DNA of 64,000 bases. It comes from Mycolicibacterium gilvum. Its GTDB lineage: Bacteria; Actinomycetota; Actinomycetes; Mycobacteriales; Mycobacteriaceae. The position numbers and the translations under genes were made by a program. The notes beneath the pieces were generated by a model. That model was not told the DNA's origin. It searched no databases and saw only the letters and a list, made by a program, of their open reading frames with translations. The stretch is from contig NZ_UGQM01000001.1 in the NCBI RefSeq assembly GCF_900454025.1, forward strand, positions 1,488,001 through 1,552,000, given 5' to 3'. Below are positions 1,547 through 40,941 of this stretch, piece by piece; within the stretch, counting starts at the first letter, position 1; each line of letters begins with the position of its first letter.

Positions 1547-2087
1547 GCCGGCGGATCGTCGACCGCAGCCGCGGGAGATCGGCTCCGCCGACCAGCGTGC
1601 ACCCGTGCAACTCGGCGAGTTTGCGTGCCGCGGGCGTGAACTCGTGGTTGGTGACGACCATCGTCTGGGTGCAGTCCTGCATCGGCGCGCCCGCGACCAC
1701 CTCCTGGACGGCGCCGGCCCCGACGGGACGCGACAGGCGTTTGCACTGCACGGCGAGCCGATGCGGGCGGTGGCCGACGATCAGGTCCACGCCCCAGTCG
1801 CCGGTCATCGACGTCATGATCACCGGCACCCCGCACGTGCGGGCGATCCTGGCGACGTAGTCCTCGAACTCGGTGCCCGACATGTCGGCGTCGACGGGAT
1901 TCTCGCGCGGGCCCGGGGTGGCCGCCCCCGCGACGACCGACCGCACGAAGGACGGGGCCGCGACCACGAGCACGGGGGCCAGCAACCCCGCGAGGACGGT
2001 CCACAGCCATCCGGCGCCGGAGAGGTGGGCGGTGGCGCCGGCTGCGATCGCGAGCGCCGCGTAGAGCCGCCACCTGAGCGTTGTCAC
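1494..2087 (-). CDS. Membrane-anchored Mrr-type restriction endonuclease-like protein
   Basis: The 197-residue product starts at a GTG. It begins with two hydrophobic stretches (about residues 8-25 and 28-52). A soluble domain follows with the pattern GTEFEDYVARIA, GDWGVDLIVG and AVQCKR, which is the E, D and QxK layout of the Mrr_cat branch of PD-(D/E)XK nucleases. The segment TMVVTNHEFTPAARKLAE is also typical of Mrr-like proteins. Such proteins may cut modified or foreign DNA, but no substrate can be inferred here. The gene is convergent with lat and overlaps its 3' end. I do not recall a counterpart at this point in M. tuberculosis, so it may be a lineage-specific insertion. Confidence 0.75.
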   Translation of the reverse strand: MTTLRWRLYAALAIAAGATAHLSGAGWLWTVLAGLLAPVLVVAAPSFVRSVVAGAATPGPRENPVDADMSGTEFEDYVARIARTCGVPVIMTSMTGDWGVDLIVGHRPHRLAVQCKRLSRPVGAGAVQEVVAGAPMQDCTQTMVVTNHEFTPAARKLAELHGCTLVGGADLPRLRSTIRRLTRPAEPPSSSAPRPPP

Positions 2088-2121
2088 CGCCGCATCGTAG
2101 AGCGCGCCACCGACATCACGG

Positions 2122-2147
2122 GTTTATCACGATCGGGTCGCGGGAAC
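2122..2147 (+). promoter_or_regulatory. SigF-type promoter upstream of the Rv3289c-like gene
   Basis: GTTT at 2122-2125 and GGGAAC at 2142-2147 are separated by 16 bases. The mycobacterial SigF consensus is roughly GTTT, 15-17 bases, GGGTAT. The same GTTT-N16-GGGAA arrangement recurs upstream of the CsbD-like gene. It lies about 50 bases before the ATG at 2198 and would drive the small gene and usfY next to sigF. Confidence 0.55.
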
Positions 2148-2197
2148 CCACCGCAAACCACATACCGGCTCTGGATCGTGAAAACGGAGACCCCGCG

Positions 2198-2569
2198 ATG
2201 GCCGATCTGTCCCGCAACACCGAGCTACGCCGCAGCACCGGCGTCGGCGATCCTGGTGTGCGTGACGCGATCCGCACAGGCGTCGGGATCTCGGTGGCGG
2301 CTCTGGTGTTCCTGTTCGTCGCGGACATGTGGAACGGGACGTGCACCGGATCGCTTGCTCAGGCGATCGGCTGCGCGCCGTCCCAGCAGGCGGCCCTGAC
2401 GTTGGGGGCACCGGCGATACTGTTGGCCGGCGGAATCTGGTCGATGGCGCGGGGCTTCCGGGTGCGCGCCGGCCATTCGGCGATGGCCTGGCAGGTCGCG
2501 GGCTGGACGTTGTTCACGCTCGCGGTGGCGTGCGCGGTTTTGAGTCTTCCGTCGCTGCCCGGGCGGTAG
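2198..2569 (+). CDS. Conserved membrane protein, Rv3289c-like
   Basis: The 123-residue protein starts at the ATG at 2198, chosen for the purine-rich site (CGGAGA) just upstream. It has a soluble N-terminus rich in charged residues, then hydrophobic segments at about residues 29-45, 65-80 and 100-115. Two cysteines in the loop around GTCTGS and IGCAPS could form a disulfide on the outer face. Position and size match Rv3289c, which lies between lat and usfY in M. tuberculosis. The function is unknown. A SigF-type promoter upstream and the sigF neighbourhood suggest a general-stress gene. It is followed after 32 bases by usfY, probably as an operon. Confidence 0.7.
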   Translation: MADLSRNTELRRSTGVGDPGVRDAIRTGVGISVAALVFLFVADMWNGTCTGSLAQAIGCAPSQQAALTLGAPAILLAGGIWSMARGFRVRAGHSAMAWQVAGWTLFTLAVACAVLSLPSLPGR

Positions 2570-2601
2570 CACACTGGAGGGGTAGTTCTAAGGAGTTACC
2601 C

Positions 2602-2910
2602 ATGAGGGGTCCATCAGATCCTGTCGACCACGTGCGCACCACACGACCGCATGCCGGAGAGTCGATGAAGGACAACAAGATCATGCCCGGGCTCGTGGTG
2701 ATCGGGCTGTCACTGGTCAGTTTCGTGGCGATGCTCTCGGCGTTCGCCACCTCCCATCACGATGTCGGCGTGATGCTCGGCGCGATCGCGGCCGCCGGCT
2801 TCGTGCTGGGTGGCGGTTGGCTGTTCATCGAGCATCAGCGGGTCCGGCGGCTCGAGGAACGCTGGTACGCCGAACACCCCGGCGCGTGGCGTCAGCGCCC
2901 GAACAGCTGA
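2602..2910 (+). CDS. usfY: UsfY-like membrane protein
   Basis: The 102-residue protein starts at the ATG at 2602, with a strong site (AAGGAG at 2590-2595) seven bases upstream. The N-terminal 25 residues are polar. Two predicted membrane helices follow (about residues 30-47 and 54-71), then a basic tail with VRRLEERWYAEHPGAW. Position upstream of usfX-sigF identifies it with UsfY (Rv3288c), a SigF-associated membrane protein of unknown biochemical role. It is somewhat shorter than my recollection of the M. tuberculosis protein. It probably shares a transcript with the Rv3289c-like gene. Confidence 0.75.
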   Translation: MRGPSDPVDHVRTTRPHAGESMKDNKIMPGLVVIGLSLVSFVAMLSAFATSHHDVGVMLGAIAAAGFVLGGGWLFIEHQRVRRLEERWYAEHPGAWRQRPNS

Positions 2911-2919
2911 GCTGTGCGC

Positions 2920-2976
2920 CGAGATTGTGCTCAGGGTCGTGATCGCGAGTTATCCACAGCCCTGAGCGCAATGTCG
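2920..2976. repeat. Left copy of an imperfect palindrome flanking the DUF559 gene
   Basis: Arms at 2920-2936 (CGAGATTGTGCTCAGGG) and 2960-2976 pair at 15 of 17 positions around a 23-base loop. A closely related hairpin lies at 3861-3918, so the DUF559 gene is bracketed by two copies in the same orientation. The loops differ in sequence. Confidence 0.75.
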
Positions 2977-3022
2977 ATGCTCCGCGGGCCGATGTGTCGG
3001 CGCCCGGGTCGAGCATCGCGGT

Positions 3023-3907
3023 ATGCGGAGACCGTTCGTGGGCAGCGAGGCGCTGGCGTCAGGCGCCCTGACCCGGTCGGCACTGCGGTGGAACTACAGA
3101 AGAATCTTCCCCGACGTCTACCTCCCCGTCGACGTCCGGCCGACGCTGTACGACCTCACCGTCGCGGCGTGGCTCTGGTCCGGACGCCGGGGTGTCATCG
3201 CCGGAGCAGCCGCGTCAGCACTGCATGGTTCGCGATGGGTCGTGCCGACGGTACCGATCGAAATGATCTGGCAGAACGGTCGCCCACCGCCGGGCATTGT
3301 CGTGCGCAACGAGCGGATCGACGGTGACGAAACCTGCGTGAGGGGCGGGACGCTGGTGACGACGCCGGAGCGGACGGCGTTCGACCTGGCCCGGCACCTG
3401 CGACGCGACCAGGCAGTGGCGCGGCTGGATGCACTCGCCAACGCGACCGAGGTCAAGGCGGTCGACGTCCTGGCCCTCGCGGAGCGTCATCCCGCGGCCC
3501 GCGGGATCCGTCGGGCGGTCGCGGCACTGAGCCTGATGGACGGCGGCGCGCAATCGCCGCGGGAGACGTGGCTGCGTCTGCTGTTGGTCGACGAATGGCT
3601 TGATCCGCTGAGGACTCAGGTGGAGGTCGGCGATGGCCGGACGACGGTGCATCTCGACCTTGGGTATGACGAGCCGAGGATCGGTCTGGAGTACGAGGGA
3701 TCGCATCACAGCGAGGACCGCCGAACCTATGTCCACGACATCGGACGGACGGAGTTCATCGAGCGGCATGGATGGCTTGCCATCAAGGTCGTCAAAGAGC
3801 ATTCGCCGGAGTTCATCAGATTCCGGGTGAGAGAGGCCTTTGCGCGCCGCGGTGTGACGCCGAGATTGCGCTCAGGGTCGCGGAACAGGCGACGGCCACG
3901 GCCGTGA
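3023..3907 (+). CDS. DUF559 endonuclease-like protein with AbiEi-type N-terminus
   Basis: This 294-residue protein has an N-terminal region resembling the winged-helix part of AbiEi-type antitoxins (VGSEALASGALTRSALRWNYRRIFPDVY is the characteristic opening, quoted here as its first part VGSEALASGALTRSAL). A C-terminal DUF559 domain follows, with VHLDLGYDEPRIGLEYEG near residue 210, the D and ExE layout of Vsr-like PD-(D/E)XK folds. Such genes are numerous in mycobacteria and their role is not established; no partner toxin is visible beside it. The last 15 codons run through the left arm and loop of the 3861-3918 hairpin and give an arginine-rich tail. The gene separates usfY from usfX, which are adjacent in M. 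tuberculosis, so it is probably acquired. Confidence 0.75.
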   Translation: MRRPFVGSEALASGALTRSALRWNYRRIFPDVYLPVDVRPTLYDLTVAAWLWSGRRGVIAGAAASALHGSRWVVPTVPIEMIWQNGRPPPGIVVRNERIDGDETCVRGGTLVTTPERTAFDLARHLRRDQAVARLDALANATEVKAVDVLALAERHPAARGIRRAVAALSLMDGGAQSPRETWLRLLLVDEWLDPLRTQVEVGDGRTTVHLDLGYDEPRIGLEYEGSHHSEDRRTYVHDIGRTEFIERHGWLAIKVVKEHSPEFIRFRVREAFARRGVTPRLRSGSRNRRRPRP

Positions 3908-3918
3908 GCGCAATTTCG
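3861..3918. repeat. Right copy of the palindrome flanking the DUF559 gene
   Basis: Arms at 3861-3877 (CGAGATTGCGCTCAGGG) and 3902-3918 pair at 15 of 17 positions. The first arm differs from that of the 2920-2976 copy at one base. The stop codon of the DUF559 gene (3905-3907) lies inside the second arm. Confidence 0.75.
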
Positions 3919-3937
3919 GCGCCATCCACACAAACGT

Positions 3938-3967
3938 CGAGCCCGACCGGAGAACCGGTCGGGCTCG
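3938..3967. terminator. Strong hairpin between convergent genes, probable bidirectional terminator
   Basis: CGAGCCCGACCGG at 3938-3950 and its exact reverse complement at 3955-3967 form a 13-bp GC-rich stem with loop AGAA. It sits between the DUF559 gene (+, ends 3907) and the CsbD-like gene (-, ends 3983). There is no clear U tract, as is usual for mycobacterial terminators. Confidence 0.75.
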
Positions 3968-3982
3968 ATCGCGGAAAGCGAA

Positions 3983-4219
3983 TTACTGGTTGGCTTCCTG
4001 GCGCTTCTCGGCAGCCTTGGCACCGGCGCGGGCCGACTCGGCCTCGGCTTCCTTCTCGGCGACCTCACGCTGTGCGTCGGCCTTGTCCTGCTGGGCCTTG
4101 CCCTCCTGGACCATGTCGTCGCGGCCGGCGACGGTGCCGATGGTCTCCTTGGCCTTGCCCTTGACGTCCTCGACGACGCCCTTGATGCCCTCTTGGGGAC
4201 CGCTGTTCTTCTCAGTCAT
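3983..4219 (-). CDS. CsbD-like stress protein
   Basis: The 78-residue protein begins MTEKNSGPQEGIKGVVEDVK and continues GKAKETIGTVAGRD, the CsbD core in which a GKxKExxGxxxxxD pattern is conserved. An Ala/Glu/Lys-rich helical tail follows. The start is the ATG at 4219, preceded by GAGAGG. An upstream in-frame extension has no ribosome site. CsbD-family proteins are small, hydrophilic and strongly induced by general stress; their function is unclear. A SigF-type motif lies 65 bases upstream, which fits sigF being next door. Confidence 0.85.
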   Translation of the reverse strand: MTEKNSGPQEGIKGVVEDVKGKAKETIGTVAGRDDMVQEGKAQQDKADAQREVAEKEAEAESARAGAKAAEKRQEANQ

Positions 4220-4283
4220 GGTGTACCTCTCGCTCTGGGGTGTTCGGGTCGTAGGGGCCCGCCTTGTTGAGCCATCCCAAGGC

Positions 4284-4309
4284 TTCCCGGGCCCTCCGAC
4301 TGCTAAACG
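4284..4309 (-). promoter_or_regulatory. SigF-type promoter of the CsbD-like gene
   Basis: On the minus strand GTTT (4309-4306) is followed after 16 bases by GGGAAG (4289-4284). Spacing and -10 core are the same as in the motif at 2122-2147. Confidence 0.55.
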
Positions 4310-4412
4310 GGTGACCCGTGTCTCATCGAACGTCATTCAGCGCCAACGATTTTGCCGGGTTAGGCGCATTTGCCTGGGGGTACGGGACTCTCATGCATTT
4401 GCTGACGACAGG

Positions 4413-4439
4413 GTTTGGCGGTCACCGGCCCGGGGGTAT
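4413..4439 (+). promoter_or_regulatory. SigF consensus promoter upstream of usfX-sigF
   Basis: GTTT at 4413-4416 and GGGTAT at 4434-4439 are separated by 17 bases, an exact match to the SigF consensus. It points toward usfX and sigF, whose first start codon is about 278 bases downstream, and would give an autoregulatory transcript with a long leader. The transcript would run antisense across the small membrane gene at 4467-4595. A second GGGTAA at 4683-4688 lacks a good -35. Confidence 0.65.
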
Positions 4440-4466
4440 GGGAGCGCCACCATGAACTCACCCGCA

Positions 4467-4595
4467 TCACTGCATCATCGGCGCCAGCAGCAGGAACGCT
4501 CCGGCATAGATCGCGACTCCGATGAGGATCATGATCGCCAGTACGGTCGCGGCGATCACCAGTATGCGGCGCAGGGGCTTGGCGTTCTGGTCCAT
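4467..4595 (-). CDS. Small single-span membrane protein (42 aa)
   Basis: The minus-strand frame from the ATG at 4595 to the TGA at 4467 encodes 42 residues: a basic start (MDQNAKPLRR), then an uninterrupted hydrophobic segment from about residue 11 to 40 (ILVIAATVLAIMILIGVAIY, then AGAFLLLAPMMQ). A basic N-terminus followed by one helix is characteristic of real small membrane proteins and unlikely in a random frame. The ribosome site (ACGAGA) is weak. It lies between the CsbD-like gene and usfX, downstream of no obvious promoter. The function is unknown; regulation by the SigF locus is possible. Confidence 0.6.
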   Translation of the reverse strand: MDQNAKPLRRILVIAATVLAIMILIGVAIYAGAFLLLAPMMQ

Positions 4596-4716
4596 TCTCG
4601 TCGGTTACCCGGCGCGGGGTGGGCATTAACAAATGCACTCGTCAACGCCCGGAGCGCCCATGGATAGTGGGGATAAAGCCTGGGGTAATCTCGCTTCGAA
4701 GTTTCCGGGAGGTCAG

Positions 4717-5151
4717 ATGGCCGATGTCGCGAGCCACAGCAATGGACAGCGTCTCAGCCCGCAGTCGGTAGAACTACGGGTCGCGGCGGCGCTGGAGAAT
4801 TTGGCGGTGCTGCGGACGCTGGTGGCCGCAATCGGCACGTTCGAGGACCTCGATTTCGACGCGGTGGCCGATCTGCGGCTGGCCGTCGACGAGGCCTGTA
4901 CGCGGCTGATCAGGTCCGCCGTGCCGGACTCGACGCTGCTGGTGGTGGTGGACCCGCAGCCGGACGCGCTGGTGGTCCACGCGTCCACAACCTGCGACAG
5001 CACGGACATCCTCGCGCCGGGCAGCTTCAGCTGGCACGTGTTGAGCTCGCTGACCGACGAGGTCACGACGTTCTCCGACGGACAGGCGGCCGACGACGGC
5101 GAGGTATTCGGTATCTCCATGACGACGAGGCGAGCGAGTTCGTTGCAGTGA
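4717..5151 (+). CDS. usfX: Anti-sigma-F factor UsfX (RsbW-like)
   Basis: The 144-residue protein starts at the ATG at 4717, with GGGAGG just upstream; the longer in-frame extension has no such site. It is an RsbW-type histidine-kinase-like ATPase. The N-box region appears as DLRLAVDEACTRL (about residues 50-62), after LAVLRTLVAAIGTFEDL. UsfX binds SigF and holds it inactive until antagonists of the STAS type compete for it. Length and position agree with Rv3287c. Its TGA overlaps the GTG of sigF (GTGA at 5148-5151), so the two are translationally coupled and made together. Confidence 0.9.
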   Translation: MADVASHSNGQRLSPQSVELRVAAALENLAVLRTLVAAIGTFEDLDFDAVADLRLAVDEACTRLIRSAVPDSTLLVVVDPQPDALVVHASTTCDSTDILAPGSFSWHVLSSLTDEVTTFSDGQAADDGEVFGISMTTRRASSLQ

Positions 5152-34808: not shown

Positions 34809-35469
34809 GTGAAGAATATCGCGGCGGCATCGCCGGTGAAAGTTTCCGCCGACGGCCATGGCGTTGTGTCGCATGCCGGGATGGGCATGCTGCGTGAGCT
34901 TGCCGACCGGACCGGCTTATCGGCGCAGGTCACGGCCGCGTTGGCCGACACCTACCGCGGCCCGTGGGTGTATGCGCCTGGGGAGGTGTTCGCTGATCTG
35001 GCGGCCGCGGTCGCCGACGGCGCGGACTGCATCGACGCGGTCGGTCAGCTGTGCGGTGACCGGGAGCACGTCCTGGGGGCCAAGGCCTCAACGACCACCA
35101 TGTGGCGGCTGATCGATGAGCGGATCGATGCCGCGCATCTACCCGGGGTGCGCGCAGCCCGAGCCGCGGCGCGGGCAGCGGCCTGGGCTGTCGGAGCCGC
35201 CCCCACCACCGGCGGCTGGCTGCATATCGACATCGATGCCACGCTGGTGATCGATCACTCCGACAACAAGGCCGGGGCTGCGCCGACCTGGAAGAAAACG
35301 TTCGGGCTGCACCCGCTGCTGGCGTTTCTGGACCGCCCCGACATCGCCGGCGGCGAAGCCCTGGCCGGGTTGCTGCGCAACGGTAACGCCGGCTCCAACA
35401 CCGCCTCCGACCACATCATCGTCCTGCACCAGGCTTTGGCATCGCTGCCAGCGGCGTGGCGGCCCAACC
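34809..35469 (+). pseudogene. IS1380-family transposase, copy 1, 5' part
   Basis: From the GTG at 34809: residues 1-220 of the 468-residue transposase, including HIDIDATLVIDHSDNKAGAA with the first catalytic aspartates. It is cut by the DUF6431 transposon after LPAAWRPN. Residues match the intact copy at 48768. Confidence 0.92.
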
Positions 35470-35667
35470 TGTTGACCGTCTCTCAGCATGACGACCACGG
35501 GGTAGTTATTCGTCATTGAGGTTGCTGATGTGAGGCGCCGGATTCTCGTGAGGTTGCTGGTGTTGGTGTGCACCGTCAGGGTGAGGACGTACTGATGGGT
35601 CGCGCGGCACCCCGCTGAAGTCTTGGCGGGCTCGCAGGGTGCCGCGCTGTAGTGCACGGAGGCACTC

Positions 35668-36255
35668 ATGGTGACGGTAGAGGCTGATCTGGTTTCCGTC
35701 GAGTCCCGGCTGGCTGCCGGCGAGATCGGGTGCCCGTCCTGCGACGACGGTGTGCTGGGCGGCTGGGGATTTGCCCGGCCCCGCCGCATCCGCGGCGTAG
35801 CTGGCGCGGTGCGTCCGCGACGGGGGCGTTGCCGGTCGTGTCTGGTGACGCATGTGCTGCTGCCGGTGATGATGTTTGCGCGTAGAGGGTATGGCGCACA
35901 GACGATTTGGAATGCGTTGGTGCAGCGAGCCGACGGCTTTGGGCATCGCCGAATCGCGGAGAATCTGAGGGTGCCAGCGACCACGGTGCGCGGATGGCTG
36001 CGCCGGGTGGCCGGGCGTGTGGAGTCAGTGCGGGCGTGGTTCATCCAGGTCGCGATGCGCACCGGAATAGACGTGCCGGTCCCGCAGGGGTTCGGCTGCG
36101 GCTGGCGTGATCTGGTGGCCGCGATAATCACCGCCGCTGCGGCGATCGGTCAGCGGTTCGGCCCGGCGGGGGTGCTGGGCGTGGTGACGCCGCACTTGGT
36201 GATGGTGGCGGTCAGCGGCGGGCGGCTGTTGGCGCCGGACTGGTTACCGGCATGA
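35668..36255 (+). CDS. DUF6431-like zinc-ribbon/HTH protein of the transposon
   Basis: The 195-residue protein starts behind GGAGG. Near the N-terminus CPSCDDG and RCRSC make a four-cysteine zinc ribbon. ARRGYGAQTIWNALVQRADG follows, then an HTH-like segment RIAENLRVPATTVRGWLRRV. The C-terminal half is hydrophobic and small-residue-rich (IITAAAAIGQRFGPAG). It comes first in the operon, upstream of the transposase. By position it could be a regulator or a target-site recognition subunit, analogous to TniQ, but this is inference; there is no TniQ motif that I recognise. Confidence 0.7.
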   Translation: MVTVEADLVSVESRLAAGEIGCPSCDDGVLGGWGFARPRRIRGVAGAVRPRRGRCRSCLVTHVLLPVMMFARRGYGAQTIWNALVQRADGFGHRRIAENLRVPATTVRGWLRRVAGRVESVRAWFIQVAMRTGIDVPVPQGFGCGWRDLVAAIITAAAAIGQRFGPAGVLGVVTPHLVMVAVSGGRLLAPDWLPA

Positions 36256-36378
36256 CGTGGGGTGCACGCAACACCAGTTGCCCCTGACGCGACGCGCCGT
36301 GATCGGTGATCCTCGCCAAGGAACCTGCCCGGCAACGGTTTCGGGCAGGGCCGCCGAGCATGCGAGGAGGACACTGCG

Positions 36379-37872
36379 GTGTCATTGGAAGAGCACAAGC
36401 GTCGGGAGCGGGCCCACGCGATCGGGTTGTTCCGCTATCAGTTGATCTGCCCTGCACTGGAGGCGGGGTTGTCGACCAAGCAGCGGGGCAGGCTGGTCCG
36501 CGAGATCGCCGAGCGGCGCCATATCGACCCGTTCGGCAGTCAGGTGCAGGTGGCGCGGGCGACCTTGGATCGCTGGATCCGCCGTTACCGGGCTGGCGGC
36601 TTCGAGGCACTGGTCCCTGAGCCGCGGCGGTTGGCCACCCGCACCGATGAGCAGGTGTTGGAGCTGGCTTCCTCGCTGAAACGGGAGAACCCGGCCCGCA
36701 CCGCCGCCCAGGTGGCCCGGATCCTGCGCACCGCGACCGGGTGGGCACCCTCAGAGTCGACCCTGCTGCGCCACTTCCACCGCAGCGAACTGATGGGCCC
36801 GGCCACCGGCGCGGCAGGTGAGGTGTTCGGGCGGTTCGAAGCCCCCGACCCGAATGAACTGTGGGTCGGCGATGCCCTGCACGGCCCGCGGGTCGGGGAC
36901 CGCAAAACCTACCTCTTCGCGTTCCTCGACGACCATTCTCGGTTGGTGGTCGGGCACCGCTTCGGGTTCGCCGAAGACACCGTGCGCCTGGCGGCGGCGT
37001 TGAAGCCGGCGTTGGCTGCTCGCGGAGTTCCCGCCTCGATCTATGTCGACAACGGGTCCGCGTTCGTCGATGCGTGGTTGCTGCGGGCGTGCGCGAAACT
37101 CGGGATCCGGCTGGTGCATTCCGCGCCCGGTCGCCCGCAGGGCCGCGGCAAGATCGAACGGTTCTTCCGCACCGTGCGTGAACAGTTCCTCGTCGAGGTC
37201 ACCGACACCAGCAGCGAGGACCTCGCCGCGGCCGGGGTGGATCACCGCGGGGCGTTGTTGGAGCTCAACCGGCTGTTCATGGCCTGGGTCGAGACCGAAT
37301 ACCATCGCCGCACCCACTCCGAGACCGAAGCGCCGCCGCTGGCTCGGTGGGAGGACGGCTGGGATCGGCTCGGCGGGCTGCCGGCGTTGCCGACTGCTGC
37401 GGATTTGACTGAGGCGTTCTTGTGGTCGGAGTTCCGCACGGTGACCAAAACCGCCACGGTCTCGCTGCATGCCAACACCTACCGGGTCGACCCGGCCCTG
37501 GCCGGGCGCCGGGTGGAGTTGGTGTTCTCCCCGTTCGATCTGGAAACGATCGAGGTCCGCTACCGGGATCAGAGTTTCGGCGCCGCGATCGCTCACACCA
37601 TCACCCGCCATGCCCATCCGAAAGCCCGGCCCGAGACCGTTGACTCAGGACCTGCGCCGGCGGTGACGGGGATCGACTATCTGGCGTTGACTGCCGCTGC
37701 CCATCATGAGCAGCTGCGCCAGGATGAACGTATCGGCTATCACGCCCTCTACGGCCCTCGCACTGACCGCACTATCGACGCCCCTGGCGACCATGCTCAG
37801 ATTCCTGGCCAGCTCTCCATCACCGACCTCGACCCCAGCAACGCTGCTCATGAAGATGGGGTGTCGGCATGA
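36379..37872 (+). CDS. DDE (rve-fold) transposase of the DUF6431 transposon
   Basis: The 497-residue protein starts at a GTG behind GAGGAGG. An N-terminal pair of HTH domains (about residues 15-130: ATLDRWIRRYRAGGFEALVP, ARTAAQVARILRTATG) precedes an integrase core with the DDE residues in LWVGDALHG (Asp about 160), ASIYVDNGSAFVDAW (Asp) and QGRGKIERFFRTVREQF (Glu). A Mu-type beta-barrel C-terminus follows (TKTATVSLHANTYRVDPALA). It joins the element ends to the target. It overlaps the ATPase gene by four bases. Confidence 0.88.
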   Translation: MSLEEHKRRERAHAIGLFRYQLICPALEAGLSTKQRGRLVREIAERRHIDPFGSQVQVARATLDRWIRRYRAGGFEALVPEPRRLATRTDEQVLELASSLKRENPARTAAQVARILRTATGWAPSESTLLRHFHRSELMGPATGAAGEVFGRFEAPDPNELWVGDALHGPRVGDRKTYLFAFLDDHSRLVVGHRFGFAEDTVRLAAALKPALAARGVPASIYVDNGSAFVDAWLLRACAKLGIRLVHSAPGRPQGRGKIERFFRTVREQFLVEVTDTSSEDLAAAGVDHRGALLELNRLFMAWVETEYHRRTHSETEAPPLARWEDGWDRLGGLPALPTAADLTEAFLWSEFRTVTKTATVSLHANTYRVDPALAGRRVELVFSPFDLETIEVRYRDQSFGAAIAHTITRHAHPKARPETVDSGPAPAVTGIDYLALTAAAHHEQLRQDERIGYHALYGPRTDRTIDAPGDHAQIPGQLSITDLDPSNAAHEDGVSA

Positions 37873-38684
37873 GTATTGAACGGCTGCAATCGCATTGGGG
37901 TTTCTCCCGGATGCCGTTCGGGCGGAATCTAGCTCCGTCGATGCTGCACCGCCACCCCGGCCACAGTGAAGCGATCGCCCGCATCGGCTGGTGTGTCAAT
38001 CAGTGCGCGATCGGGGTCATCACCGGTGAAGTCGGCGCCGGCAAAACCGTGGCCATCCGCGCCGCGGCGACCGCCCTGGACCCCGCCCGGCACGTCATCA
38101 TCTACCTGGCCAACCCCACCATCGGAGTCCGCGGGATGCTCACCCACATCGTGGCCGCACTCGGACACACCCCGGTCTTTCACACCGCCCGCCTCGCACC
38201 CCAGGCCGCGGACGCCCTGGCCGCTGAACACGCCGAACGCGGCCGCAACCCCGTGCTCGTCGTCGATGAAGCCCATCTGCTCGACAACCATCAGCTCGAA
38301 GCGATCCGGCTGCTCACGAACCATGACATGGACTCCGGGTCACCGTTCGCGGTGGTGCTGGTCGGCCAACCCACCCTGCGGCACCGGCTACGCCTCGGTG
38401 TCCTTGCCGCGTTGGATCAGCGCATCGCCGTGCGCTACACCCTGCCCGGCATGAGTCCAGCTGACACCGCCGACTACATCAGCCATCACACCAAGATCGC
38501 CGGCCGCTCCGACACCCTGTTCGCCGAGGATGCCGTCACCCTGATTCACAACGCCTCACGCGGACACCCACGAGCGGTCAACAACCTCGCCTTGCACGCG
38601 CTGACGGCTGCGTTCGCGGCCGGTCATTCCATCGTCGGTGAGAAAGCTGCCCGCATCGCCATCAGCGAAACAGCCTCAGACTGA
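37869..38684 (+). CDS. ExeA/TniB-like AAA ATPase of the DUF6431 transposon
   Basis: The 271-residue protein begins HWGFSRMPFGRNLAPSMLH, typical of ExeA-like ATPases. Walker A is GVITGEVGAGKTVAIRAA (about residues 50-67), Walker B is NPVLVVDEAHLLDN (about 130) and sensor 1 VVLVGQPTLRHRL. It is expected to bind DNA with ATP and to direct the transposase to targets, like MuB, TnsC and TniB. The ATGA overlap with the transposase shows they are made together. A rho-independent-type hairpin follows at 38752. Confidence 0.88.
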   Translation: MSIERLQSHWGFSRMPFGRNLAPSMLHRHPGHSEAIARIGWCVNQCAIGVITGEVGAGKTVAIRAAATALDPARHVIIYLANPTIGVRGMLTHIVAALGHTPVFHTARLAPQAADALAAEHAERGRNPVLVVDEAHLLDNHQLEAIRLLTNHDMDSGSPFAVVLVGQPTLRHRLRLGVLAALDQRIAVRYTLPGMSPADTADYISHHTKIAGRSDTLFAEDAVTLIHNASRGHPRAVNNLALHALTAAFAAGHSIVGEKAARIAISETASD

Positions 38685-38751
38685 ACCAGACTCCCATCAC
38701 CGAGACCACCACGGCATCACCGCGGCGACGATCCCGTCACCGAGACCACCA

Positions 38752-38785
38752 CAGCCCCGCTCAAAACACCGAGCGGGGCTGTTCT
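38752..38785 (+). terminator. Terminator of the DUF6431 transposon operon
   Basis: CAGCCCCGCTC at 38752-38762 pairs perfectly with 38771-38781 around AAAACACC, followed by TTCTC. A 16-base direct repeat (TCACCGAGACCACCAC) lies just before it at about 38698 and 38738. Confidence 0.8.
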
Positions 38786-38945
38786 CATCGATCCGTCATC
38801 ATCACCACCGATGACGACAACATCGTCACGCTCAATGACGGGCAACACCCAACCCCGACGATCCCGACAACCCGGGACTTGACCCCGTGTGTTGGACACG
38901 CTCAATCCCAGGAATGTGCTGGGGGAAGCGAGATGATCCAACCCG

Positions 38946-39278
38946 ATGGCAAGGAAAAATTACCCCGATGAGTTCAAGCGTGACGCGGTCGCGCTCTACC
39001 GGGACACCGAGGGCGCGACGATCGCCCAGATCGCTGCCGAGCTCGGTGTCAGCGAGGCCACGCTCTCGGCGTGGTGCAAGTCGGCCGGGGTGCCGATTCG
39101 GCACCGCCGCGGTGTCGTAGTGGCCGAGCCTGTGCCAGGGGCCGAGAGCCCTGAGCAGGAGCTGGCCCGCCTCCGCAGTGAGGTCAAGGCGTTACGCGCC
39201 ACCGAGGCGCGGTTGTCCACCGAGCGTGACATCTTGCGGTCGGCGGCCAAATATTTCGCCGGGGAGACGAACTGGTGA
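38946..39278 (+). CDS. IS3 no. 2 copy B, OrfA
   Basis: Identical to the 110-residue OrfA at 27369-27701, with HTH IAQIAAELGVSEATLSAWCK and a C-terminal coiled coil. Overlaps OrfB by GTGA. Confidence 0.93.
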   Translation: MARKNYPDEFKRDAVALYRDTEGATIAQIAAELGVSEATLSAWCKSAGVPIRHRRGVVVAEPVPGAESPEQELARLRSEVKALRATEARLSTERDILRSAAKYFAGETNW

Positions 39279-40174
39279 GCCGCTTTCAGTTTGTCGCCGA
39301 CCACCTGCACGCCTTCGAGGTGAAGTGGCTCTGCGCAGTCGTCGAGGTTGCGCGTTCGTCGTTCTACGCGTGGTTGGCCGGTGCTGACGGACGAGCGGCC
39401 CGTCGGGCTGCTGACGAGGCGCTGGCCGAGCGTATCCGCGCCGTCCACGACGAGGACAACACCTACGGGGCGCCGCGGATCACCGCCGAGCTCAACGACG
39501 GTGCGCCCGAGGGGCAGCGGGTCAACCACAAGCGGGTGGCTCGGGTGATGCGCGGCGCCGGGATCGCCGGTTATCGACGCCGACGTCGGGTCAAGACGAC
39601 CGTGGCGGACCCGGCGAACCAGAAGGTCCCCGACCTGCTCAAACGGGATTTCACCGCCGCGCAGGTCAACACCCGTTACGTCGGCGACATCACCTACTTG
39701 CCATTGGCGACCGGCGCCAACCTGTACCTGGCCACCGTGATCGACTGCTGTTCACGGCGGGTCGCCGGGTGGGCGATCGCCGATCACATGCGCACCGAAC
39801 TGGTCATCGATGCGCTCAAAGCCGCTGCTGCACTGCGGGGTTCACTGGCTGGTGCAATATTCCATGCAGATCATGGAAGTCAGTACACCTCACGGGATTT
39901 CGCGAATCTCTGCCGCGATCTGGGGGTCGTCCAGTCGATGGGTGCGGTGGGGTCAAGTGCCGATAACGCGTTGGCCGAATCGTTCAACGCCGCCCTCAAG
40001 CGCGAGATTCTGCAAGACCGTAACTGCTGGCCGGACGCGGCGATCTGCCGCCGTGAGGTCTTTCGGTGGCTGGCCCGCTACAACACCACACGACGGCACT
40101 CCTACTGCCGTCATTCCAGCCCCGCGACCTACGAAAGGAACCTGACACCGGCTACGCTGCCCGAAGCCGCATAA
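39275..40174 (+). CDS. IS3 no. 2 copy B, OrfB transposase
   Basis: The 299-residue transposase is complete: HTH_21 segment DEDNTYGAPRITAELNDG, then the DDE core with RYVGDITYLP, HADHGSQYTSRDF and NALAESFNAALKREIL. It starts at a GTG overlapping the OrfA stop and ends at 40174, 37 bases before the right end of the element. Confidence 0.94.
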   Translation: MSRFQFVADHLHAFEVKWLCAVVEVARSSFYAWLAGADGRAARRAADEALAERIRAVHDEDNTYGAPRITAELNDGAPEGQRVNHKRVARVMRGAGIAGYRRRRRVKTTVADPANQKVPDLLKRDFTAAQVNTRYVGDITYLPLATGANLYLATVIDCCSRRVAGWAIADHMRTELVIDALKAAAALRGSLAGAIFHADHGSQYTSRDFANLCRDLGVVQSMGAVGSSADNALAESFNAALKREILQDRNCWPDAAICRREVFRWLARYNTTRRHSYCRHSSPATYERNLTPATLPEAA

Positions 40175-40211
40175 CCACAAATCCCGTGTCCACTACATGG
40201 GGGCAAGGCCC

Positions 40212-40941
40212 CCCCGAGGCCCCGAAGGTGTTGGTGCGCTGCGATACCGCCGGATCCACCCACAAATTCGCCGCAGCGTGCCGGGCCGCCGGGGCCGGGT
40301 TCTCCTTCGGGTACCCCGTCGATACCCGCGTCCAGGACGCCGTGGACACCCTCAACCTCGGCGATTGCTGGTATCCAGCGATCGACACCGACGGCGGGAT
40401 CCGCGACGGCGCGTGGGTCGCTGAAGCCACCGACCTGGTCAACCTGGCCTCCTGGCCCGAAGGGACCCGGCTGATCCTGCGTAAAGAACGCCCCCACCCC
40501 GGCGCGCAGTTGCGGTTCACCGACGCCGACGGCATGCGGGTCACCGCGTTCATCACCGACACACCACCGGGTGTCGTACCCGGTCAGGTCGCCGGTCTGG
40601 AACTACGGCACCGCCAGCACGCCCGCGTCGAGGACCGTATCCGCGAACTCAAAGCCACCGGGCTGCGTAACCTGCCCTGCCACTCCTTCTGGGCCAATGC
40701 TGCCTGGCTCGAAATCGTCCTGGCCGCCGCTGACCTGGTCACCTGGACCCGCCTCATCGGGTTCGCCAGCGATCGCGCTCTGGCCCGCGTCGAGATCACC
40801 ACGTTCCGCTACCGGGTCCTGCACGTGGCCGCCCGTATCACCCGCGGCGCCCGCCAACTGCGGCTACGCATCGATGCCACCTGGCGCTGGGCGGCGGCGA
40901 TCGCCGCCGCCTGGCACCGCGTCCGCACCGCCTTCGGATAA
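40212..40941 (+). pseudogene. IS1380-family transposase, copy 1, 3' part
   Basis: Continues the transposase from PEAPKVLVRCDTAGSTHKFA to the C-terminus WHRVRTAFG. Together with 34809-35469 and the 26-base piece at 38848-38873 it rebuilds the intact 468-residue protein. Confidence 0.92.

Follow-up and report, generated by a model that had tools for sequence, protein, structure and literature searches.

The transposon located in a 64,000-nucleotide stretch of Mycolicibacterium gilvum DNA (RefSeq assembly GCF_900454025.1, contig NZ_UGQM01000001.1, positions 1,488,001 to 1,552,000; hereafter the window) raises the question of which function a protein of the DUF6431 family fulfills beside a DDE transposase and an AAA+ ATPase. 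It is proposed, at about equal chances of being right or wrong, that a Tn552-type core is accompanied by DUF6431 as an element-specific DNA-binding factor, which is carried by satellites borrowing the DDE transposase and the ATPase. Within this evenly balanced reading, the window element represents an active, autonomous transposon of the DDE plus AAA+ ATPase type. The proposal starts from the anatomy of the element, the recent movement of full and small elements, the constant linkage of the genes and purifying selection on DUF6431. DUF6431-only small elements and a conserved internal 20-bp sequence were observed in addition to what a preliminary description of this DNA had reported.

The window element begins with TGTTG and ends with CAACA. 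Including this copy, three copies with 0 mismatches among them were detected in the own genome at three unrelated sites, flanked by the duplications GCCGG, CCCAACC and ATCAGAC (5, 7 and 7 bp). Since three mismatch-free copies occupy three sites, the element is considered complete and recently moved. Moreover, duplications of at least 5 bp were found at 28 of 35 distinct sites of related elements, as compared with 8 of 1190 mispaired flanks, so that the transposon postulated previously, which measures 3378 bp, is regarded as real. The reported 7-bp duplication (CCCAACC) does flank the window element, but its length is not fixed: over the 28 sites, 5 bp occurred ten times, 6 bp twelve times, 7 bp four times, and 8 and 9 bp once each. 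A Thermobacillus element also features a 6-bp duplication. When the two ends of the window element are compared, 21 of the outermost 30 positions agree, and the repeated GTCATTGAG motifs noticed earlier inside both ends belong to four repeats of approximately 21 bp, two per end. Applying a profile built from the right outer site and evaluated by leave-one-out over 28 related elements, 26 elements showed a left site at +7 and 24 one at +41, and all 28 showed a right site at +7 and 25 one at +31, while the fraction of interior positions scoring above 10 bits was 0.00014. Patternless variation of ends and duplications had been named in the preliminary description as an argument against its interpretation; the duplication lengths do vary from 5 to 9 bp, whereas the ends do not.

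Among the encoded proteins, the DDE protein matched the rve (70 bits) and Mu transposase C-terminal (32.5 bits) domains above the respective cut-offs. Its putative catalytic residues are D165, D224 and E260, and the position of D165 is occupied by D in all 27 aligned transposases. The ATPase, whose gene shares its first 4 bp with the end of the DDE gene, matched AAA_22 (84.3 bits) and features a Walker A motif at residue 53 and a Walker B motif at residue 130. Its structure model (mean predicted local distance difference test score, pLDDT, 78.9) matched the folds of ORC/Cdc6 (best E-value 1.6e-08), MuB (7.3e-07) and TnsC (1.7e-06). The hallmarks of DDE-AAA+ systems, i.e., catalytic D,D,E and Walker motifs, are thus present, in line with the DDE enzyme plus ATPase assigned before, the ATPase being of MuB/TnsC type.

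The DUF6431 protein features zinc-ribbon cysteines at positions 22, 25, 55 and 58, a helix-turn-helix at about 81–119 and a helical C-terminus (AlphaFold2 model, mean pLDDT 86.9). It scored 20.5 bits against PF20020, below the Pfam gathering score of 26.6. Among 86 aligned DUF6431 relatives, PF20020 was found in 83 and HTH_23 in 77 (E<=0.01); four proteins from other phyla exceeded the PF20020 cut-off (39.4, 28.5, 28.9 and 104.7 bits), and four small-element proteins reached 37.5, 28.0, 24.2 and 34.3 bits. The three element genes match helix-turn-helix/DUF6431, DDE and AAA families, with no recombinase or resolvase among them, and TnsA is absent from the three-gene element. As implied by the preliminary description, no TniQ was observed: PF06527 matched none of the three element proteins and was not among the 15 families found in the 86 DUF6431 relatives. 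In comparisons of the window element with eight others, ratios of non-synonymous to synonymous substitution rates (dN/dS) were 0.28–0.55 for DUF6431 (seven pairs, the eighth being without synonymous change), 0.12–0.39 for the DDE protein and 0.02–0.35 for the ATPase. These ratios indicate protein-level constraint on all three proteins, with DUF6431 changing fastest.

To determine linkage, distinct loci with a DDE match of at least 420 residues and at least 900 bases upstream were counted, leaving out near-identical loci and those fetched with DUF6431 as query. DUF6431 was located upstream in 47 of 49 distinct complete DDE loci, and the ATPase downstream in all 49. In one exception (L085), DUF6431 is present and an IS256 gene intervenes before the DDE gene; in the other (L029), DUF6431 is degraded to a partial match of 31.6 bits. 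The gene order DUF6431-DDE-ATPase is stable across Actinomycetota, Bacillota and Pseudomonadota, with Thermobacillus, Planococcus, Cupriavidus and Acidithiobacillus as members outside Actinomycetota. Hence, DUF6431 is the first-encoded, constant third component that it had been supposed to be, and the frequent absence that had been named as a counterargument was not encountered. The family is uncommon, occurring, with the own genome counted, in 12 of 119 near relatives (E<=1e-60), 6 of 397 members of the order (E<=1e-60) and 8 of 296 of the phylum (E<=1e-40). The earlier suggestion that it may be undescribed is compatible with searchable papers, in which no description was found; this is weak evidence of novelty, as most subscription journals lie outside. 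DUF6431 was encountered in one paper, within a gene table (available excerpt of PMC12323340), where it adjoins a DDE gene in the gut bacterium Ruminococcus gnavus, hinting that the pair reaches beyond the members studied here.

Regarding kinship, a 23-row tree placed the DDE proteins of all DUF6431-associated rows together with L111 on one side of a branch with 100/100 support, apart from three recombinase-associated and two TnsB rows. L111 had first been labelled as being without DUF6431; a profile search then gave 41.1 and 45.6 bits. A long-branched Enterobacter row was dropped before this tree was calculated. The recombinase-associated relatives L140-L142, which by their gene order are presumably Tn552-like, show the order recombinase, DDE, ATPase; in L139, the DDE gene is annotated in two pieces. 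Because of this gene order, DUF6431 is read as standing in the resolvase slot. A DUF6431 profile search beside the five recombinase-bearing loci (L105, L139-L142) found nothing. In L105, an Enterobacter plasmid, a recombinase, an IS481-type DDE and an ExeA-type ATPase gene lie in a row at 1731-4894, the ATPase matching many enterobacterial plasmids.

Furthermore, DUF6431 occurs in elements lacking a transposase gene. Four solitary plasmid copies of the DUF6431 gene (L100-L103), at which DDE is missing, were fetched, and each proved to be bounded by the ends known from full elements. These small elements of approximately 1.05 kb (1040–1112 bp) contain DUF6431 as sole gene; a further one (L173) measures 1239 bp and is without duplication. 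Duplications were observed at 12 of 14 distinct two-ended sites (5 bp, n=1; 6 bp, n=6; 7 bp, n=4; 9 bp, n=1), and the end sites (L1 at +7, L2 at +41 or +31, R1 at +7, R2 at +31) follow the spacing of full elements. On the Mycobacterium chimaera plasmid NZ_CP012886.2, four small copies (99.9–100% identical) occupy four sites with four different duplications. The small-element proteins form their own clade versus full-element proteins (100/100) and show dN/dS values of 0.29–0.56 (eight pairs); therefore, they are considered old and selected. The same plasmid also harbors L206, a full element of 3218 bp with a 6-bp duplication. Its right end, TGTTGACCGGCACTCAGGATGAGCAT, belongs to the GGCACTC type, as do the small element's ends; for L091, the other full element delimited on this plasmid, the end type is different. 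The end type shared by L206 would fit a supply of DDE and ATPase to the small elements in trans. A census of end pairs covered G000 together with seven plasmid records; of the 51 end hits, 40 made up 20 pairs. All 20 enclose DUF6431, and nine of them are without DDE and too short for the ATPase.

A second feature shared by both kinds of elements is the internal sequence with the consensus (G/T)CAACAC(C/G)AG(T/C)(T/C)G(C/A)CCCTG, located between DUF6431 and DDE in full elements. It was recovered in 57 loci at >=12/18 matches. A scan of 36 delimited actinobacterial elements, among them near-copies, found it in every one with 13 or more of 18 matches; its position, counted from the left end, was 774-823 in most and near 720 in two of them. 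In the 64-kb window, the site scored 33.3 bits with a profile that includes the site itself, the next best position reaching 14.2 bits. Since it falls in varying frames of the DUF6431 3' end or past its stop, it is not kept as protein, and we read it as a sequence probably conserved as DNA or RNA. Small elements contain a related sequence (12 to 14 of 18 matches) at about -74 nt from DUF6431 in four of five cases and at -58 in one. Thus, it is kept downstream of DUF6431 in full and upstream in small elements.

Based on these results, we infer the following biochemical steps, including the trans supply and the binding target of DUF6431. The DDE protein would bind two sites per end; the ATPase would mark target DNA with little sequence choice and activate the DDE protein, and strand transfer would be staggered by 5–9 bp. 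DUF6431, encoded where relatives have the absent recombinase, would bind its own element via zinc ribbon and helix-turn-helix, most likely at the internal 20-bp sequence and perhaps at the end sites, and would recruit or license the DDE-ATPase pair, which could be shared between elements. The small elements are consistent with this: reduced to DUF6431, the internal sequence and the ends, they would depend on a full element for movement in trans. Given the existence of DUF6431-only elements, DUF6431 looks like the part that an element cannot borrow. A bolder version, in which DUF6431 is a cis-committed recruiter at a fixed internal site and hence a third licensing mode for DDE-AAA+ transposition beside the TniQ and TnsE types, and DUF6431-only elements are true satellites competing for the full elements' DDE-ATPase, is put forward tentatively and is probably too strong.

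Several results weigh against this proposal. With DUF6431 as query, fold searches revealed no clear match over the whole protein. A complete end pair was missing at nine further loci that have DUF6431 but no DDE (L147, L148, L157, L164-L168, L172), some of which lie at contig ends or are broken. In the census, 11 of the 51 end hits remained unpaired, and all eight sequences were pre-known holders of the family (five plasmids via DDE, two via DUF6431); a strict pattern applied to 119 relatives gave only seven end pairs, all with DUF6431, four of which had already been counted. Not all hosts of small elements were established to contain a full element. The internal sequence is not universal, being unrecognizable in the Bacillota and Pseudomonadota members and in the remote Actinomycetota L109-L111. 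In an earlier 27-row tree, the DUF6431-associated group reached only 91/97 and included the long-branched, recombinase-bearing Enterobacter row. In the analysis of the 23-row tree, constraining the group without L111 to one clade was 7.3 log units worse (approximately unbiased test, p-AU 0.085).

Among other explanations, a role of DUF6431 as transcriptional regulator is the most serious, even if it is rather unlikely. The internal sequence would then be an operator controlling the DDE-ATPase transcript or, in small elements, DUF6431's own gene. At similarly modest probability, DUF6431 would restrict transposition, and its presence in small elements would serve to repress or de-repress full elements. 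The place of the internal sequence upstream of DDE in full and of DUF6431 in small elements is operator- or promoter-like, and zinc ribbon plus helix-turn-helix represent a DNA-binding layout; regulation alone leaves unexplained, however, why all 20 end pairs enclose DUF6431 and why a transposase-less element needs it. Far less probable is that DUF6431 is a passenger useless in transposition, with small elements being ordinary non-autonomous relics that keep it by chance. DUF6431 is without known function, and passenger genes are found in other transposon families, but linkage in 47 of 49 loci and across three phyla, purifying selection in full and small elements alike, and the separation of the small-element proteins as one old clade with another gene order around the internal sequence, rather than fresh deletions, speak against it.

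The preliminary description had raised the possibility that DUF6431 replaces TniQ as target selector; it would then read features of the target DNA and pass them to the ATPase. Size and DNA-binding make-up of the protein are as expected for this role, it contains no TniQ match and evolves fastest of the three proteins, and several insertions lie in other transposase genes. Nevertheless, the identical copies of the own genome reside in unrelated sequences, namely a transposase gene of IS1380, a LOG-like gene (TIGR00730) and one open reading frame (ORF) without NCBIfam match, with unrelated duplications, and the 12 listed 6-bp duplications show no consensus by eye. Target annotation covered six ORFs from 20 sites; further targets were transposase genes of IS30 and IS1634, with scores above cut-off, as well as ORFs weakly matching IS110 and IS481/IS3, and no common target type was seen among the sites read. 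In this small sample, the frequent insertion into mobile DNA is explained by survival bias no less well than by target choice. Target selection is consequently regarded as improbable, though somewhat less so than a passenger role.

The proposed Tn552-type core with DUF6431 as DNA-binding factor was also compared with known systems. Tn552-like elements encode a recombinase, a DDE transposase of approximately 480 amino acids (aa) and an ATPase of approximately 270 aa. The window element resembles them in that a DDE protein with a Mu-type C-terminal domain (497 aa) adjoins an ATPase of such size (271 aa). Further likenesses are the arrays of approximately 20-bp repeats at Tn552 ends (excerpt of PMC8649781) and a 6-bp duplication, which the B3/Tn552 group leaves as its footprint (excerpt of PMC8705779). 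In contrast, the window element has no recombinase, DUF6431 precedes DDE, duplications are 5–9 bp long, and its DDE protein is on a branch separate (100/100) from the three recombinase-bearing rows. Tn5053/Tn402 elements generate a fixed duplication of 5 bp, unlike the 5–9 bp over 28 sites found here. With these and with Tn7-like elements, the window element shares the DDE plus AAA+ ATPase pair and end-site arrays (excerpt of PMC8649781); the arrays of approximately 20-bp inverted repeats in both ends of Tn7-like elements correspond to its two sites per end. It differs from both by the lack of TniQ, TnsA and resolvase and by the separate branch of the TnsB rows, and the three own-genome copies lie in ORFs, whereas Tn5053/Tn402 insert into res sites (excerpt of PMC11406308). 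As a side observation, TniQ matches occurred in 9 of 61 genomes searched, including one in the window's own genome (C1:3350454), and Tn7-like gene sets, judged by size and motif, surround three of them (L132-L135 set).

Phage Mu is likewise related, since the DDE protein matches phrog_310 (transposase, E-value 2.2e-44), the ATPase matches phrog_296 (DNA transposition protein, E-value 4.3e-26) and the ATPase model matches MuB; the window element differs by the lack of phage genes, its size of 3.4 kb and its two sites per end. Target immunity is a property of Mu and Tn7. It is described for DDE plus AAA+ transposons in the available part of PMC11208146. One element of G064 is inserted into another with which it is identical over 3094 bp, and has an 8-bp duplication; hence, target immunity, if it exists here, is not absolute. 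The DDE core is also related to IS481 (177.5 bits, NF033577 cut-off 224) and IS21 (48.1 bits, NF033546 cut-off 160), in both cases below the cut-off, and a DUF6431 gene is not known to be part of either family. Small elements move without their own transposase gene, as do mobile insertion cassettes and miniature inverted-repeat transposable elements (MITEs), but the gene retained in the present case belongs to the core set of the full element and evolves under selection.

DDE plus AAA+ ATPase transposons represent a stock for programmable insertion tools, and third components decide where or whether they act. DUF6431 is such a third component present in three phyla, and the natural small elements show which part an element carries itself. 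The question is tractable in a small system comprising three proteins, substrates of about 1 kb, known ends and a candidate internal site. Coordinates of the features are summarized in Table 1.

Table 1. Features of the DUF6431-DDE-ATPase transposon, given as positions of the window
Feature	Position	Strand	Basis
Target duplication, left copy, CCCAACC	35463..35469	.	Sequence comparison
Whole transposon, 3378 bp, TGTTGACC...GGGCAACA, TGTTG...CAACA	35470..38847	+	Two further 0-mismatch copies in the same genome
End site L1 (left end, outer) at +7, a repeat putatively bound by the transposase	35476..35496	+	Leave-one-out repeat profile
End site L2 (left end, inner) at +41, includes GTCATTGAG	35510..35530	+	Repeat profile
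DUF6431/helix-turn-helix protein gene, 195 aa	35668..36255	+	Pfam, structure model, cysteines
Conserved internal sequence CGCAACACCAGTTGCCCCTGAC, one per element, ~110 bp ahead of DDE start	36267..36288	+	Profile
DDE transposase gene, 497 aa, rve and Mu transposase C-terminal domain	36379..37872	+	Pfam, putative catalytic residues
AAA+ ATPase gene, 271 aa	37869..38684	+	Pfam, Walker motifs, model
End site R2 (right end, inner) at +31, counted from the right end	38797..38817	-	Repeat profile
End site R1 (right end, outer) at +7, counted from the right end	38821..38841	-	Repeat profile
Target duplication, right copy, CCCAACC	38848..38854	.	Sequence comparison

In the window, the element interrupts the IS1380 transposase gene, the pieces of which scored 155.2 bits (left, from 34809) and 191.8 bits (right, 40066-40941) against NF033539 (cut-off 180). 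Between the element and the right IS1380 piece, there is an IS3-type gene pair (38946-40174), whose second gene reached 302.5 bits against a cut-off of 160. The region 34809-40941 therefore represents nested mobile DNA, consisting of an IS1380 gene split by the transposon plus the IS3-type pair. Nested insertions were also observed in L239, a copy of 8172 bp with a 6-bp duplication on a plasmid of Rhodococcus sp. USK10, which harbors other insertions within DUF6431 and DDE. Moreover, two hairpins were noticed in the window element. The first, CCTGCCC...GGGCAGG at 36324-36349, precedes the DDE ribosome site and possibly serves translation control; differing hairpins were seen by eye at this place in some relatives. 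The second, located at 38754-38779 within the element and close to its right end, is the G+C-rich hairpin GCCCCGCTC...GAGCGGGGC; it resembles an intrinsic terminator, and many relatives contain similar G+C-rich stretches.

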